This document shows positions 14,957 through 24,980 of a stretch of 58,953 bases of DNA, piece after piece. The notes beneath the pieces were generated by a model. It was given only the letters and a program-made list of their open reading frames with translations. It made no database searches and had not been told where the DNA came from. The translations under genes and the position numbers were made by a program. The stretch's first letter is position 1, and the number at the start of each line of letters is the position of its first letter. The stretch is taken from positions 1 to 58,953 of the IMG/VR virus record IMGVR_UViG_3300009788_000015. One strand, written 5' to 3'. The DNA is from a virus.

Positions 14957-16597
14957 CTAGCCCAAGACGTCCTCGATGACGCCGCGTTCGTGGACAACTT
15001 CGTCGAAGGTTGTATCACCCTTTCCGTCCAGCGTCGCGGTCCTCCCCGTCTTCTCCTGCCACCGGCGCACCACGACGTCCACGTAGGTCGGCTCCAGCTC
15101 CAGGCCGTAGCACCTGCGCCCGAACAGCTGGGCGGCCATCAAGGTCGTCCCCGTGCCCAGGAACGGCTCCAGCACCAGCCCGCCCTCGGGGCACGAGCTC
15201 ACCACCGCGCGCGCGATCATCCTGGTCGGCTTCGGCGTGGCGTGGCCGTAGCGGTCCTCCTCGACGACCCGCCCGAACTGCCAGACGTCGGTCATGGAGT
15301 CGTGGGCGTTGTCGAAGTAGGACCGAGCCTCGCACACCTGGGCGTACAGTTCCTGGTGGTAGACGACACTTCCTTCCTTGACGTCCGAGAACTGGTCGAC
15401 GAGCTCGTCGTAGCCGATGGAGAAGGCACCACCCTTCGCCGCGGCGCGCAGCTTGTTGTAGTTGGTCCTCGTGATGAAGTGGAACTGAGACTTGCCGAAC
15501 CAGTGCCCGGCCATGCGGGTGCCGGTGATCCGGTTGACGTCCCCGGCCTTCCAGCCCGCAGCGTCGCGCTGCCCGACCATCCACCGGCGCAGGGGCTCGT
15601 AGCCCTCCCAGTATTCGTCCTTGTTCTGGTTGCCGAGGAACTGCTGGCCCCGCATGAGGAACAGGCACCGCTCCGTCTCGGGGCTGTAGCTGTGCTGCCC
15701 CTCACCAGACATGCCGAAGCCAGAGCCTTTGGCCCACACGACCTCGTTGCGCACGTGCAGCTCGTCGACCTCGCTGAGCCCCGCGGCGTACCACAGACGC
15801 CACAGGTCCGGCGCGTTGCCCCAGATATACAGCCCGCAGTTCTGGCGCGCGTAGCGCAGCGCGAGCTGCAGCCACTTGAGCTGGAAGGCGTCGAGCTTGT
15901 CGGCGTAGAGGTTGTCGTTGGCGATGCCGTCGGCCTCCTTACCCATGCCGTAGGGCGGGTCGGCGTGGACCAGGTCGGCGAGCTCCTCACCCATGAGCTT
16001 GCTCACGTGGGCGGCGGTGGTCGCGTCGCCGCACAACACGCGGTGGTTGTCGAGCAGCCAGAGGTCGCCCGAGCGCGTGACCGCCACCTCCTCGACCGAG
16101 GTGAACTCGTCGGCGCCCTCCAGGCCCTTGGGGTCGACCACGTCGGGCTCCAGCAGGCTGGCCAGCGTCGAGGCGTCGAAGCCGAGCAGGTCGACGTCGA
16201 AGTCGTCCAGCGTGTTGAGCTCCCCGACCTCGACCTTCAGCAGGTCGGTGTCCCACCCCGCGCTGATGGTGAGCTGGTTGTCGGCGATCACGTAGGCGTG
16301 CTTCTGCGCCTTCGTCCAGCCCCGCGCCACGACGCACGGCACCTCGTCGACGCCGAGCTTCAGCGCGGCGAGCACGCGGCCGTGGCCGGCAATGATCCCA
16401 TCCTCCTCGTCGACCAGCACCGGGGTCGTCCACCCCCACTCCTCGATCGACGCGGCGATCTGGGCGACCTGCCGGGGCGAGTGGACCCGCGCGTTGTGGG
16501 CGTAGGGCACCAGGTCAGCGACTCGGCGACGGTGGACCTCCTCGGCGGGCCACCCGTTGGACTTCGACACCGGGCGCCGCTTCACCTTGGCCTTCAT
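14957..16597 (-). CDS. ParB-like domain fused to N6/N4 DNA methyltransferase
   Basis: A 546-aa product. Residues ~20-110 are a ParB/sulfiredoxin-like domain (VADLVPYAHNARVHSPRQV, DGIIAGHGRVLAALKLG, with the typical GHGR). The remainder is an amino-methyltransferase: catalytic DPPYG at ~213-217, then a variable target-recognition region, and the SAM-binding EPFLGTGTT at ~478-486 followed by RRCYGLELEPTYVDVVV. Catalytic motif before SAM motif indicates the beta-class order. It probably modifies phage DNA to escape restriction, or marks DNA for packaging, as it neighbours the terminase. It ends IEDVLG. Confidence 0.85.
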   Translation of the reverse strand: MKAKVKRRPVSKSNGWPAEEVHRRRVADLVPYAHNARVHSPRQVAQIAASIEEWGWTTPVLVDEEDGIIAGHGRVLAALKLGVDEVPCVVARGWTKAQKHAYVIADNQLTISAGWDTDLLKVEVGELNTLDDFDVDLLGFDASTLASLLEPDVVDPKGLEGADEFTSVEEVAVTRSGDLWLLDNHRVLCGDATTAAHVSKLMGEELADLVHADPPYGMGKEADGIANDNLYADKLDAFQLKWLQLALRYARQNCGLYIWGNAPDLWRLWYAAGLSEVDELHVRNEVVWAKGSGFGMSGEGQHSYSPETERCLFLMRGQQFLGNQNKDEYWEGYEPLRRWMVGQRDAAGWKAGDVNRITGTRMAGHWFGKSQFHFITRTNYNKLRAAAKGGAFSIGYDELVDQFSDVKEGSVVYHQELYAQVCEARSYFDNAHDSMTDVWQFGRVVEEDRYGHATPKPTRMIARAVVSSCPEGGLVLEPFLGTGTTLMAAQLFGRRCYGLELEPTYVDVVVRRWQEKTGRTATLDGKGDTTFDEVVHERGVIEDVLG

Positions 16598-20323: not shown

Positions 20324-21352
20324 TCACCCGAGCAGCTCCTCGACCTCGCGCAGGGACCTGGCCATGCGGCGCCACCACTCCAGGAGCACGTCGACGTTGC
20401 GGACCTCGCCCCGCTCGGCCTTGCCGATCCACCAGGCGGACAGCCCGGTCCACCCGGCCACCTCCCTGGGCGACAGCCCGGACCGCCGTCGAAGGACGAA
20501 CGCCTCCTCGTGCGCCTCCAGGCGCCGCAGGTTGGCCCGTGGTGGCCCCGATTCGCCCAGCTCCCACCGGTGGTACCGACCGGCCGCGACGCCGTACAGG
20601 GCGGCACACGCCCCCTGGGAGAGTCCTGCGCGGCGTCGGCTGACCTCCAGGGTCTCGCCCAGCGTCAGGTCATCAACAGTCAGGATCGGCTCCACGATCG
20701 TCGGATCCTTTTCTAATCGGTAGATCGCCACGTGGGCGCCAGGCTCCTGGCCCGGGTCGGCCCACAGCTTGAGCGGCGGCGCCCAGGCCACCTGCTGGTC
20801 GTCGCACCATACCAGGTGCGGGCAGCCGTCAAAGCCCCCGAGGGCGTCCACCAGCGCCTTGCCGAGGTTGTCCGCGTCGGGCTTGGAGGTGTGGAAGGTC
20901 GGGGCCCCGGCCTTGAGCTCCCGGTCCCGCCGCCCGGCGACGTGGTGCGACTTGGGCCGCCGGAACCTGAAGGTCATCTCGACGGCCACCGCGACACCGA
21001 GGGGGACCAGCCCGGTCACCCCGCCGCGGAGCAGGGCCAGCCGACACGCGGCCCGGGCGCCGTGCTTCCACGCGTCGGCCGAGTGGTCCCGGTGGATTCG
21101 ACCGTCCTGCCCCTTCCTCGCCCGGGGCTCGCCGGCGGGTTCGCCCTCGACTTCGAAGGCGGTGAAGTCGAGGTCGCGGGATTTGCTGGCCCTTTGGGGG
21201 GCCCCCCTACGGGGGGCACCCCCCCAGGGGCCACCAAACCTCATCCCGTGCGGCCCATCCGGCCTTTGCTGGCCCTTTTTGGTAACGCACTGTGCTACAT
21301 GGGTTTGTGACTTTGCTGGCCCATCCGGCCCTTTTGCTGGCCCACCCTTCAC
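20324..21352 (-). CDS. rusA: RusA-type Holliday-junction resolvase fused to two helix-turn-helix domains
   Basis: A 342-aa product. Residues ~90-205 match RusA: basic beta strands (GVAVAVEMTFRFRRPKSHH), TFHTSKPDADNLGKALVDALGG with KPDxDN at ~156, and VWCDDQQVAW, giving the three catalytic Asp. Residues ~215-330 are two XRE-type HTH units (RRRAGLSQGACAALYGVAAGRYHRWE and RRRSGLSPREVAGWTGLSAWWIGKAE), closely paralogous to the stand-alone protein at 44407-44766. RusA alone is ~120 aa, so this is a genuine fusion in one open frame. It probably resolves recombination intermediates and may bind a specific site or autoregulate. GTG start overlaps the RepA stop. Ends EELLG. Confidence 0.85.
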   Translation of the reverse strand: MKGGPAKGPDGPAKSQTHVAQCVTKKGQQRPDGPHGMRFGGPWGGAPRRGAPQRASKSRDLDFTAFEVEGEPAGEPRARKGQDGRIHRDHSADAWKHGARAACRLALLRGGVTGLVPLGVAVAVEMTFRFRRPKSHHVAGRRDRELKAGAPTFHTSKPDADNLGKALVDALGGFDGCPHLVWCDDQQVAWAPPLKLWADPGQEPGAHVAIYRLEKDPTIVEPILTVDDLTLGETLEVSRRRAGLSQGACAALYGVAAGRYHRWELGESGPPRANLRRLEAHEEAFVLRRRSGLSPREVAGWTGLSAWWIGKAERGEVRNVDVLLEWWRRMARSLREVEELLG

Positions 21353-21379
21353 GACAGTAGGTCCCCGATTTGCTGGCCC
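21182..21379. repeat. Five copies of TTTGCTGGCCC (candidate iterons)
   Basis: The exact 11-mer occurs at 21182-21192, 21265-21275, 21312-21322, 21333-21343 and 21369-21379, all in the same orientation, within the end of the RepA gene and the start of the RusA gene. It is read in three different codon phases (encoding GPAK, GQQ and RASK), so selection is on DNA, not protein. A second unit, GGCCCATCCGGCC, occurs twice. Iterons beside a RepA-type helicase suggest a replication origin or an operator. Confidence 0.6.
21196..21235. repeat. G/C-tract palindromes
   Basis: GGGGGGCCCCCC at 21196-21207 is a perfect 12-bp palindrome, followed within a few bases by further G6 and C7 runs that can pair with it. 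The tract lies inside the iteron cluster and inside the RusA coding sequence, where it encodes Gly/Pro/Arg. It could form hairpins or G-rich structures. Confidence 0.5.
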
Positions 21380-23412
21380 TCACCCGTGGGCCGGGCCGTA
21401 AGTCCTGGCTCCGTAAGGACGTAGCTCCGATTCTTGTCCTCGCCCGCCTTTGCGAGCCACCCGGCCACCACCGCCGCGTCCACCCGCCGCCGCGCCTGCT
21501 TCGGCGAGCAGCTGAGTAGCGACGCCAGCTCGGCGCGCGGGGTCACCAGTCCGACCCGCTCGCGGACCACGGCGAGCAGCCCGTCGTCCACCTCGGGGAA
21601 CATGTCGGCCACGCTGGCCTGCCGGTCGACGAACGTCACGGCCGTCACCGGGCGGCCCCGGTCGTCCTCGCCTAGCTGCACCGGCAGCAACACGCCCTCG
21701 ATCCTGTCCGGGCGGGCCCAGTCCTTGTGCTTGTGGGGGGTGGCGTAGGCGGCCGAGCCGCCGCCGGGCCTGGTGACCTCGAAGGAGGCGTCCAGGGCCG
21801 CGCCCATGGCCGAGCTGCCCCGGCCCCTACCCTTGTCGGCGTGCCCGGTGTGGTGGACCAGGAGCACCAGGGCGCCCGTCTCGCGGACCAGGGCGTCGAC
21901 CTGGTCGACGAAGGCGCCCATGTCCTCGCTCGAGTTCTCGTTGCCCGGCCCGAAGTTCCGCGCCTGGGTGTCCAACACGATCAGCGCCGGCGGCTCGCCC
22001 GGCTCGGCGTTCAGGACCGCCCGGACCTCCCGGGCCCACCTGGCCCGGTTCTCGGGCAGCAGCAGGGCCCCGGGCCGGGTGGACAGGTAGACCGGCAGGT
22101 CGTGGGGGCGCAGCGTGGGGTCCACCTGGTCGAGCTGGGCCTCGAACCGCCGGCCGAGGCCGTCGAGGCCCTCGCCAGCGACGTAGAACACCCGGCCGGG
22201 CCGGTCGAGCTCGTAGCCGTGCCAGTCCATTCCGGCGGCGACGTGGATCGCCAGGGACACGACCATGGCCGTCTTGCCCGAGCTCGGGTCGCCGAAGAAC
22301 TGGGCCATGCCCCTGGCCGGCAGCAGCCCGTGCAGCAGGAACTGGGCGCGGCGGCCGCGCTCGATGGCGTCGGCGAGCTGCAGGAACCAACCACCGGTGG
22401 GGGCGTCCTGCCTTTGTGGCGGCCGCCAACTTGGCAGGTCGAACCCGTCGTCGAAGGTGGCCCGCAGCCTGCCCGGGCCCTTGGCGTGGGTGCGGCAGAG
22501 GTCGGCCGTGACCCAGTCCTCGCGGCCGTAGCGGGCCGGGTCCCGGCTCTCCACCTCGCCCCGGCCGTAGGCGGTCTCGTGGATCAGGAACGATGCGGCC
22601 TCGGCGACGTGGTCCCTGGCCGCCCGCAGGACGGCCACCTCCAGCTCCTGGAAGCCCTCCGAGGCGGACGGGTGCCCCATGGCTTCCCAGTAACCGGCCG
22701 CCAGGTGGGCGATCCTACCGTTCTTGGGCAGCCGCTGGGCGACCTCGCCGCGCCGGGGTGGTGGGCCCTGGCCATCGGGCCGCGCCGCCCCGGACACCGC
22801 CCCGGCGTCCATCTGGGCCCCGTAGCGCTGCCGCAGCCAGCCCAGGCCGCCGGGCGCCGGCAGCGGCTCGGCCGAGGTGCCCTTGAGCTGGTCGCCGGTC
22901 ACGGTCACGTACTGGGCGGGCCCGCAGCCGAAGACCTGGATCTCGGGCGCCTTGTCGATGGGGCTATCCGCCGGCACCCGGATAATCGGCACCGGCGGCG
23001 GGAGCGCGGGGACGACCACGAACGTGCGCAGCCCGGTGCCGGACGGGCTGACCTCGGTGTAGCTGTTCAGGAAGGCGTCGAGGACGAACTGGGCCCAGGG
23101 CACCACCTGGCCGTCGAAGTAGCAGGCGTCCAGATCCAGCGCCAGCAGGAAGCCGTCCGGGACCTCGACGCCACCGGTGAAGACGAAGCCGCGGCCCCCG
23201 TCGGGGCCGCACTCCACGTTCTGCACGTTCTTGAACGTGCGGCGGTTTGCCTCGTCCTTCGTGCTGCCCGCCGGCTTCTTGGTGAGCCTGCCGCCCGCGT
23301 TCTGCTCCAGGCGCCACGTGGTCCAGCGCGGGATTCGCCGCAACATCTCGGGTATTTGGGCGCGCCGTGGGTCGTTGGACTCCCTACCGCGCGTCCCTTT
23401 GGTGTTTGGCAT
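21349..23412 (-). CDS. RepA-type replicative helicase with N-terminal primase-like region
   Basis: A 687-aa product starting MPNTKGTRGRESND at 23412. The N-terminal half (LALDLDACYFDGQVVPW, SPSGTGLRTFVV, EIQVFGCGPAQYVTVTG) resembles the primase/polymerase-like domain often fused to phage helicases. The C-terminal half is a RecA-fold ATPase: Walker A GDPSSGKT at ~372-379, VFYVAGEG, Walker B LIVLDTQARNF and VLLVHHTGHADKGRG, the RepA/hexameric helicase pattern. The last ~70 aa look like a winged helix (ELASLLSCSPKQARRRVDAAV). It overlaps the RusA gene (GTGA). Probably the origin-unwinding enzyme; the 11-mer repeats begin at its 3' end. Ends GDLLS. Confidence 0.85.
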   Translation of the reverse strand: MPNTKGTRGRESNDPRRAQIPEMLRRIPRWTTWRLEQNAGGRLTKKPAGSTKDEANRRTFKNVQNVECGPDGGRGFVFTGGVEVPDGFLLALDLDACYFDGQVVPWAQFVLDAFLNSYTEVSPSGTGLRTFVVVPALPPPVPIIRVPADSPIDKAPEIQVFGCGPAQYVTVTGDQLKGTSAEPLPAPGGLGWLRQRYGAQMDAGAVSGAARPDGQGPPPRRGEVAQRLPKNGRIAHLAAGYWEAMGHPSASEGFQELEVAVLRAARDHVAEAASFLIHETAYGRGEVESRDPARYGREDWVTADLCRTHAKGPGRLRATFDDGFDLPSWRPPQRQDAPTGGWFLQLADAIERGRRAQFLLHGLLPARGMAQFFGDPSSGKTAMVVSLAIHVAAGMDWHGYELDRPGRVFYVAGEGLDGLGRRFEAQLDQVDPTLRPHDLPVYLSTRPGALLLPENRARWAREVRAVLNAEPGEPPALIVLDTQARNFGPGNENSSEDMGAFVDQVDALVRETGALVLLVHHTGHADKGRGRGSSAMGAALDASFEVTRPGGGSAAYATPHKHKDWARPDRIEGVLLPVQLGEDDRGRPVTAVTFVDRQASVADMFPEVDDGLLAVVRERVGLVTPRAELASLLSCSPKQARRRVDAAVVAGWLAKAGEDKNRSYVLTEPGLTARPTGEGQQIGDLLS

Positions 23413-23558
23413 CGCCGCCCTGAATGCACCGGCGCGGTCGACCCGCCGGGGCGCCAATGCTGCCGTCGAGTGGGCGCCCGGGCAAGAGAGAAAAGCCAAC
23501 TGTTCCGTGGACCCGGCGCGGCCGCGCAGCTACCGTTTTTGGCCCACCTGCAGCCGCC
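23413..23558. promoter_or_regulatory. Divergent intergenic region (early control region)
   Basis: These 146 bp separate the leftward RepA gene from the rightward SNF2 helicase gene and are the only divergent junction of the two transcription blocks. They contain one GTTGGCTTTTC copy on the leftward strand (23490-23500). On the rightward strand a TACCGT box (~23531-23536) precedes the helicase ATG without a clear -35. Promoters in both directions are expected from the layout. Confidence 0.6.
23490..23500 (-). promoter_or_regulatory. GTTGGCTTTTC intergenic motif, copy 1
   Basis: One of five copies of GTTGGCTTT[T]C, all intergenic and all on the leftward strand. Here no good -10 box is found 17-18 bp downstream, so at this site it may be a protein-binding operator or a promoter needing an activator. 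It lies about 80 nt upstream of the RepA start. Confidence 0.45.
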
Positions 23559-24980
23559 ATGCTCGCCCTCTACCCATACCAAAAGACCGGCGCCGACTGG
23601 CTCGCCGAGCGCGCGCGGGGCTGCCTGTTCGACGAGATGGGGATGGGCAAGACCATCACCGCAATCCGTGGTGCTGGACAGGCCGGCGCCCACCACATCT
23701 TGGTATTGGTGCCGACGGTCGTGCTCTGGAACTGGGAGCGCGAGTTCAAGAGGTGGGCACCAGCGGCCGACGTCCAGGTGCTCGAATCGGGGCGCGACCA
23801 GGTCGTGGACCGCCCGCGGGCGGCGAAGAAGCTCGGCGTCCTCGGCCCGCAGCACGACGTCGTCGTCACCACCCACGGCCTGATCCTGCGGCCCGCGATC
23901 TTCTCGCAGCTCGTGGCGCGACGGTGGGATCTGCTGGTCGTCGACGAGTGCCACTTCTTCAGGGGCCCCGAGGCGAAGCGAACGAACCGGCTCTACAACC
24001 TCGAACGGCCGGCGGTCCCCGACGCCGGGCTAGACATGGAGGTGAAGGCGCTGGCGGACGCCGCATTCCGCGTCTGGCTGCTGTCCGGGACGCCGATGCC
24101 CAACCACGTCGGCGAGCTCTGGACCCATCTGCGCGGCCTGTTCCCCGAGCGAATCAGGAACGTCAAGCTCAAGCCCGCGAGCCACGCCGCGTTCCTCGAC
24201 GCCTACTGCGTCACGAGGGAGACGAAGTACGGGCCCAAGGTCGTCCACAACAAGAACCTGGGTCACTTGAGGAAGAGGCTGCGCGGCATCGTGCTGCGCC
24301 GGATGAAGAAGGACCACCTCAAGGACCTGCCGCCGATCCGCTACGAGCTCGTCACCCTCAAGCCGCGCAAGATGCCGTGGGAGCTGAAGGTCCTCGACGG
24401 CCGGCTGCGCCCCAAGCTCGTGGAGGCGGCGAAGGAGGGCCTCGGTGACGATGCCGGCCCCGACGCCGCCTGGCGCGCGCTCAGGGGCGAGGAGGACTTC
24501 ACGCGGCTGCGCCGCATGATCGGGCTGGCGAAGCTGGAGCCGGTGGTCGAGCTGCTGTCCATGGAGCTGGAGTCGCGCGCCTTGGACAAGGTCGTGCTCT
24601 TCGCGCATCACGTGGAGACGATCAGCATGGCGGCGGACGCGCTGGCGAAGTTCGGCGCGATCGTCATCACCGGGGCGACACCGGCGCGCCGGCGCCAGGA
24701 TCTGATCGACGCCTTCCAGCAGCGCCCGAGCGTGCGGGTCGCGGTGTGCAACATCGTGGCCGCCGGCACCGGCACGACGATGACGGCCGCCGCCGACGTG
24801 CTCTTCCTGGAGGCGTCGTTCGTGCCCGGCGAGAACGCGCAGGCCGCGCAGCGCGTCCATCGCATTGGCCAGGACGCCAAGGTGCGGGTGCGGTTCGTGG
24901 CGCTGGCCGGCACCAGCGACGAGGACCTGGTGCGCGCGCTGCGCAGGAAGACCGAGATGATCCGCGAGGTACTGAACTGA
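23559..24980 (+). CDS. SNF2-type DNA helicase/ATPase
   Basis: A 473-aa product starting MLALYPYQKTGADWLAERA. Helicase motifs in order: Q-like/motif I GCLFDEMGMGKTITA (Walker A at ~25-32), Ia LVLVPTVVLWNWEREF, II LLVVDECHFF (DECH), III WLLSGTPMPNHVGELW, IV KVVLFAHHVET, V NIVAAGTGTTMTAAADVLFLE, VI QAAQRVHRIGQ. This is the compact phage SNF2/SWI2 form, used as a replication or recombination translocase. It is the first gene of the rightward block. An in-frame upstream extension is Arg-rich and unlikely to be translated. Confidence 0.9.
   Translation: MLALYPYQKTGADWLAERARGCLFDEMGMGKTITAIRGAGQAGAHHILVLVPTVVLWNWEREFKRWAPAADVQVLESGRDQVVDRPRAAKKLGVLGPQHDVVVTTHGLILRPAIFSQLVARRWDLLVVDECHFFRGPEAKRTNRLYNLERPAVPDAGLDMEVKALADAAFRVWLLSGTPMPNHVGELWTHLRGLFPERIRNVKLKPASHAAFLDAYCVTRETKYGPKVVHNKNLGHLRKRLRGIVLRRMKKDHLKDLPPIRYELVTLKPRKMPWELKVLDGRLRPKLVEAAKEGLGDDAGPDAAWRALRGEEDFTRLRRMIGLAKLEPVVELLSMELESRALDKVVLFAHHVETISMAADALAKFGAIVITGATPARRRQDLIDAFQQRPSVRVAVCNIVAAGTGTTMTAAADVLFLEASFVPGENAQAAQRVHRIGQDAKVRVRFVALAGTSDEDLVRALRRKTEMIREVLN

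Follow-up and report, generated by a model that had tools for sequence, protein, structure and literature searches.

A cluster of short direct repeats in the viral DNA that we analysed (58,953 nucleotides in all, hereafter the window) appears to be the replication origin of the phage, with a probability that we put at roughly 87%. It would be an iteron origin, joined to the 3′ end of a replication gene, repA. At the level of sequence, this reading is supported by the repeats, by a spacer and a hairpin, by the gene order, by a layout that is kept across RepA genes with differing iterons, and by a rule that, in DnaD/O-like initiators carrying this repeat, relates a protein residue to the iteron. 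As in iteron origins generally, there are several direct repeats that are unique in the replicon, they lie beside and partly inside an initiator gene, and an AT-rich region is present. The elements of the putative origin and the genes that adjoin it are the following (positions in the window).

20324–21244, minus strand: RusA-like resolvase fused to HTH_31; the ORF opens at 21352, and coding signal is absent upstream of 21244
21182–21192, minus strand: iteron 5, exact copy and one outer arm of the hairpin
21193–21227, no strand: GC-rich hairpin between opposed iterons, from DNA folding; relatives have equivalent hairpins
21228–21238, plus strand: inverted near-iteron GGGCCACCAAA, with one mismatch; other outer arm of the hairpin
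21265–21275, minus strand: iteron 4, exact copy
21276–21311, no strand: AT-rich spacer between iterons 3 and 4, candidate DNA unwinding element
21312–21322, minus strand: iteron 3, 21 bp (2.0 turns) from iteron 2
21333–21343, minus strand: iteron 2, immediately past the repA stop
21349–23412, minus strand: repA, encoding a primase/polymerase-like N-terminus, a hexameric helicase of the RSF1010-RepA type (AAA_25) and a C-terminal winged helix
21369–21379, minus strand: iteron 1 (GGGCCAGCAAA), within the last codons of repA
21415–21585, minus strand: C-terminal winged-helix segment (RepA residues 610–666, AlphaFold2), proposed reader of the iterons
21466–21504, minus strand: recognition helix (residues 637–649, with S636 just before it); K638 takes the specificity position of its motif S-P-K-Q-A-R

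The 11-mer TTTGCTGGCCC, whose coding-strand form is GGGCCAGCAAA, was found in five exact copies within 198 bp (21182–21379), all in a single orientation (+) and starting at 21182, 21265, 21312, 21333 and 21369, just as a previous sequence-only reading of this DNA had described. An exact count over the whole 58,953-base record gave 0 copies outside the cluster, so the scattered further copies that the same reading had named as evidence against an origin are absent. The maximum number of copies of any 11-mer per 200 bp was five in the cluster, versus two in the remaining window and two in 100 Markov surrogates. With 5 + 1 copies the array is sparse; it starts 28 bp ahead of the repA stop and reaches ~167 bp beyond it, one copy lying in the last repA codons and four past the stop. 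A text search of the literature for TTTGCTGGCCC returned only unrelated papers among the matches listed.

Counted in the frame of repA, the copies stand in codon phases 2, 2, 2, 1 and 0, and the three phases reported previously are therefore real. Coding constraint, which had already been judged unable to account for the repeats, indeed offers no explanation, since three frames are used, copies continue past the repA stop, and coding signal is absent there. The cluster had also been placed across the 3′ end of repA and the 5′ end of rusA; the first half of this description holds, but the second concerns DNA that is probably non-coding. Third-position GC was 0.56 in the first 36 codons of the RusA ORF, versus 0.90 in the body of RusA and 0.94 in RepA, and the sole alternative in-frame start is the ATG at 21244. 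The reading frame that runs from here into RusA no longer shows the codon bias seen on either side, so that what was taken for the rusA 5′ end probably encodes no protein and is instead a cis element. The RusA gene product matched Pfam RusA (E 2.8e-11) and HTH_31 (E 4.8e-11); over 20324–21352, the RusA-like resolvase is joined to a pair of HTH_31 stretches, which is an uncommon combination of domains. Elsewhere in the phage, at 14957–16597, a ParB-like nuclease/partition domain is fused to an N6/N4 DNA methyltransferase (PHROG 620 and 498).

The C/G palindrome at 21196–21235, rightly assigned to the cluster beforehand, gave a minus-strand DNA fold of −33.4 kcal/mol (z = −3.05). The iterons flanking the hairpin are in divergent, not convergent, order and, as this orientation is opposite to the usual one, we regard the window hairpin as a variant. 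The 36-bp spacer at 21276–21311 has 44% GC in a phage of 68% GC and ranks 89th lowest among 58,917 windows of 36 bp, i.e., in the lowest 0.2%. The cumulative GC skew, suggested earlier as a check, reached its minimum near 22 kb, a position compatible with an origin; however, gene direction switches there, and for this reason we excluded the minimum as evidence.

The helicase domain of RepA matched Pfam AAA_25 (E 9.7e-32), and residues 7–179 matched PHROG primase/polymerase families (E ~1e-11). RSF1010 RepA was the sole PDB family found by sequence (1g8y family, E 1.1e-10) and also the top fold match (Foldseek rank 1, E 1.4e-7). The global AlphaFold model of the protein was poor (mean pLDDT 53.5). 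Since the C-terminal domain folded by itself only at low confidence (mean pLDDT 42), we used the alignment-based AlphaFold2 model, where the winged helix at residues 610–666 has the predicted order H-E-H-H-E-E and a local pLDDT of ~73–81. This winged helix is the RepA segment encoded immediately before the array, and its predicted recognition helix opens with SPKQAR. Among the other replication genes of the phage are its own DNA polymerase, an exonuclease and a Gp2.5-like SSB; a profile search of all window ORFs found no DnaD-like (phrog_2514-type) initiator (best E 2.5).

A single-protein search for close relatives of RepA returned none, and tblastn with its C-terminal 133 residues against phages gave no match. 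An alignment-based search yielded 80 viral loci with RepA relatives, and the repA stop could be placed in 77 of them; a three-sequence alignment worked for the search, and a seven-sequence alignment was too diverse for patterns. Within −100 to +250 of the repA stop, 61 of these 77 loci have an 8-mer present 5–16 times; among other windows taken from these loci, 17 of 2839 do. Many of the 77 are near kin, so the independent lineages number about a dozen. With such an array at the repA stop in 61 of 77 relatives, iterons beside RepA acting as an origin, the explanation offered at the outset, are the best-supported reading of the cluster. Twelve loci scored only 2, and in eight of these (L127, L131, L132, L134, L142, L178, L186 and L191) an 8-mer was repeated 8–13 times in another window; in these, the origin may lie elsewhere or the stop may have been called at a different point.

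The iterons proved to be lineage-specific among RepA relatives (GTACCGAA, CATCCGAA, AAGTGCGC, ACGCTAAA and others), and remote relatives retain an array at the same place with diverged sequence. Named relatives with an array include the Rhizobium phages 16-3 and RHph_X2_25 (GCGTGACA) and Caenibius p1 (TTGCGGAAG); arrays also occur in a Klebsiella plasmid and in Roseobacter phage CRP-406. In the two Rhizobium phages (L118, 4042–4410, and L121, 4018–4400, respectively), ~15 GCGTGACA iterons in both orientations occupy the gap after a repA-like gene, making this array an origin candidate in a cultured model phage. The nearest relative of the window (L122), 31% identical over most of RepA, carries a TGGGCA/TGCCCA array after repA, with a hairpin between opposed copies, and its SNF2 and repA genes are arranged divergently, as in the window. 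The SNF2-type helicase gene thus stands back to back with repA in both (window 21349–24980; L122 2502–6175) at only 31% RepA identity, and the two genes may form a replication unit that has been conserved.

A hairpin between opposed iterons was found in 57 of 71 arrays at a shuffle p ≤ 0.06, this being the p of the best pair, uncorrected for the choice of pair; the window is counted among the 57, with p = 0.06. The stems differ in sequence between relatives yet still pair (e.g., AACGTATCTACAGATACGTT, AACGTGTCTATAGACACGTT and AAAGGGTATATAAACCCTT).

Across RepA proteins, after trimming of the residues encoded by the iterons, similarity of the winged helix tracked similarity of the iterons beyond what helicase similarity would give (partial rank correlation 0.30, 0 of 500 permutations). 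The AAA domain likewise correlates with the iterons (partial 0.20), meaning that shared ancestry accounts for part of the effect.

When 2.9 million viral contigs were scanned for pairs of TTTGCTGGCCC copies lying close together, 12 loci were returned, eight of which are true arrays with many head-to-tail copies 11–12 bp apart; the reversed motif, used as a control in the same scan, returned 0 contigs. Three close copies were present in seven contigs, all within the eight true arrays. Many two-copy matches turned out, on reading, to be ordinary coding repeats and were set aside. The phages with the motif, which are unrelated to that of the window, span 40–61% GC, and arrays of TTTGCTGGCCC also occur in genome contigs of Hyphomicrobium, a Chloroflexota and a Geobacter. 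The arrays sit inside genes whose products are DnaD-like or lambda-O-like initiators; on contigs that include the part encoding the winged helix, the array follows that part immediately. The initiators matched phrog_2514 (E 1.6e-34, in L011) and phrog_345 (E 1.6e-27); the Geobacter gene is interrupted by stop codons. Matches to phrog_2514 in bacterial genomes gave few usable arrays. Bacterial contigs also contain, beside TTTGCTGGCCC, arrays of TTTGCTGCCCC, TTTGCCTGCCCC or TTCAGCGGCCCC (L092, 253–414; L111, ~886–988; L097, 4087–4368), and that of L092 adjoins an MsrB-like gene.

In DnaD/O-like initiators, residue X of the motif [ST]-x-X-x-[VI]-R pairs with the first bases of the iteron core: GGCCA when X is K, GACCA or GACAA when X is R, and AACCA or AACAA when X is Q. 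This rule (K-GG, R-GA, Q-AA) held in 34 of 35 distinct helices, a level reached by 0 of 20,000 label permutations; related helices are not independent, but the residue switches fall between near neighbours, in several backgrounds. The rule was first noted on 31 loci and then checked on a second, partly overlapping locus set. The sole exception, L305, has CCGACAAGC repeats and is probably no true exception, because the automatic classifier scored it on a neighbouring AACA. Helices outside the motif break the rule, as does SRAKLR with GCGGCCAACAA in L052 and L080.

The second place of the recognition-helix motif seems to matter too. In L202–L232 and L263–L342, E at this place goes with C at the next base (GACCA), and several of P, I, L and V go with A (GACAA). 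We also observed W at X with CGCCA (L290), and S before Y-R with TGAACA.

The RepA of the window, with K in SPKQAR and GGGCCAGCAAA as iteron, fits the rule; it is the one RepA with a helix of this form, and a match at K is by itself about a one-in-three event. The profile similarity between RepA and the DnaD-like helices is weak (probability 36%), yet above that of two RepA proteins with unrelated iterons. We tentatively propose, at odds that we would set slightly below even, that a single winged-helix code is common to two unrelated initiator classes, with X of [ST]-x-X-x-[VIA]-R setting the first two core bases (K-GG, R-GA, Q-AA) both in DnaD/O-like loaders and in the C-terminal domain of a helicase-primase, and that RepA phages have their origin tied to the 3′ end of repA as a compact module, in which opposed iterons of the array enclose a hairpin. 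If this is true, origin specificity could be read off the protein sequence.

Three other explanations of the repeats were considered. They could be operators, through which a repressor, either RepA itself or the RusA-fused HTH, would control rusA transcription or translation. The repeats do surround the rusA start, RusA does have an HTH_31 domain, and iteron-binding initiators are often self-regulating. Nevertheless, we consider this improbable, given that arrays also follow repA in relatives with a different next gene, that the same 11-mer lies inside initiator genes, and that the helix–iteron rule points to a winged helix and not to an HTH of the Cro/C1 type. Far less plausible is that the DNA repeat simply follows from GPAK/GQQ repeats encoded by the ORFs. 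These ORFs can be read through the repeats, and similar GQQ/RASK/GPAK stretches occur in DnaD-like proteins, but the frame and codon-position data contradict such an origin of the repeats (three frames, with copies beyond the repA stop where coding signal is absent), and a head-to-tail spacing of 11 bp cannot hold a frame. Finally, the repeats might reflect chance or the duplication of low-complexity, GC-rich DNA, or they might be incidental to a terminator. This would suit the GC-rich region and a hairpin that could pass as a terminator, but is equally hard to credit and was rejected on the surrogate counts (two copies at most), the lack of a T run after the hairpin on either strand, and the presence of the same motif in other phages across 40–61% GC.

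For the iteron origin, we regard the winged helix at the C-terminus of RepA as a likelier reader than the HTH fused to RusA, since its coding segment immediately precedes the array and it has the lysine that this iteron would call for. In the mechanism that we envisage, the winged helix would bind the GGGCCAGCAAA iterons, and several RepA molecules gathered on the array would melt the AT-rich spacer. The helicase ring could then assemble on the strand exposed at the opened spacer, and the primase-like domain of RepA would start synthesis, perhaps at the hairpin. The role of the hairpin is the least certain step: acting on the opened strand, it might be a primase start site like ssiA/ssiB, or else a structural mark like the pRN1 stem-loop.

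Where replication begins is not known for most environmental phages. Should the rule hold, the origins of many phages with RepA helicases and with DnaD/O-like initiators could be located from sequence alone, and the specificity of an initiator could be predicted from one helix residue. It would also mean that a domain for reading origins has either passed between phage replication proteins of very different kinds or arisen in them by convergence.

Origins with iterons are familiar, but the one-polypeptide layout, the hairpin module and the helix–iteron code look new. A short noncoding origin element in a replication module is found in Streptococcus thermophilus phages as the phi Sfi21 PER (PMC6356513), which, by its description, is similar in kind but belongs to an unrelated host group. 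PLE RepA and the Odn nuclease exemplify two different proteins sharing one iteron specificity (PMC8263062); PLE RepA, however, is of the RepA_N family and has semi-palindromic iterons of ~30 bp, unlike the 11-mer iterons of the window. In lambda, the iterons lie within O, the gene of their reader (PMC7466680), and here too they are in or at an initiator gene, with the same 11-mer recurring in DnaD/O-like genes. Unlike the lambda O and DnaD-like origins, the window has no DnaD-like protein, its proposed reader forms one chain with a helicase, and the gene carries the array at its 3′ end.

P4 alpha combines a primase, a helicase and a winged-helix iteron-binding domain in one chain and acts on origin repeats (PMC4234260). 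The phage RepA joins corresponding parts, as far as the descriptions can be compared, but P4 uses a Toprim primase. The pRN1 ORF904 and phage BIP-1 systems pair a multidomain replication protein, ending in a winged helix, with a cis element that follows its gene immediately (PMC4234260), and the phage RepA resembles them in both respects. ORF904 of pRN1, like P4 alpha, unites a primase and a helicase with a winged helix. The helicase of pRN1, however, is of the SF3 type and its stem-loop is 100 nt long, with no iterons present, whereas the phage has a helicase of the RSF1010-RepA type, iterons and a short GC hairpin. At the oriV of RSF1010 (IncQ), RepC binds the iterons, RepA unwinds the DNA and exposes ssiA/ssiB, and RepB′ primes there (PMC4234260). 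The phage shares with RSF1010 the RepA-type helicase, the iterons and the stem-loops beside them; it differs in holding the helicase, primase-like and DNA-binding parts in one chain and in having the array on the 3′ end of that chain's own gene. Set against the description of RSF1010 oriV, the proposed mechanism would thus have a single chain do what RSF1010 divides among RepC, RepA and RepB′.
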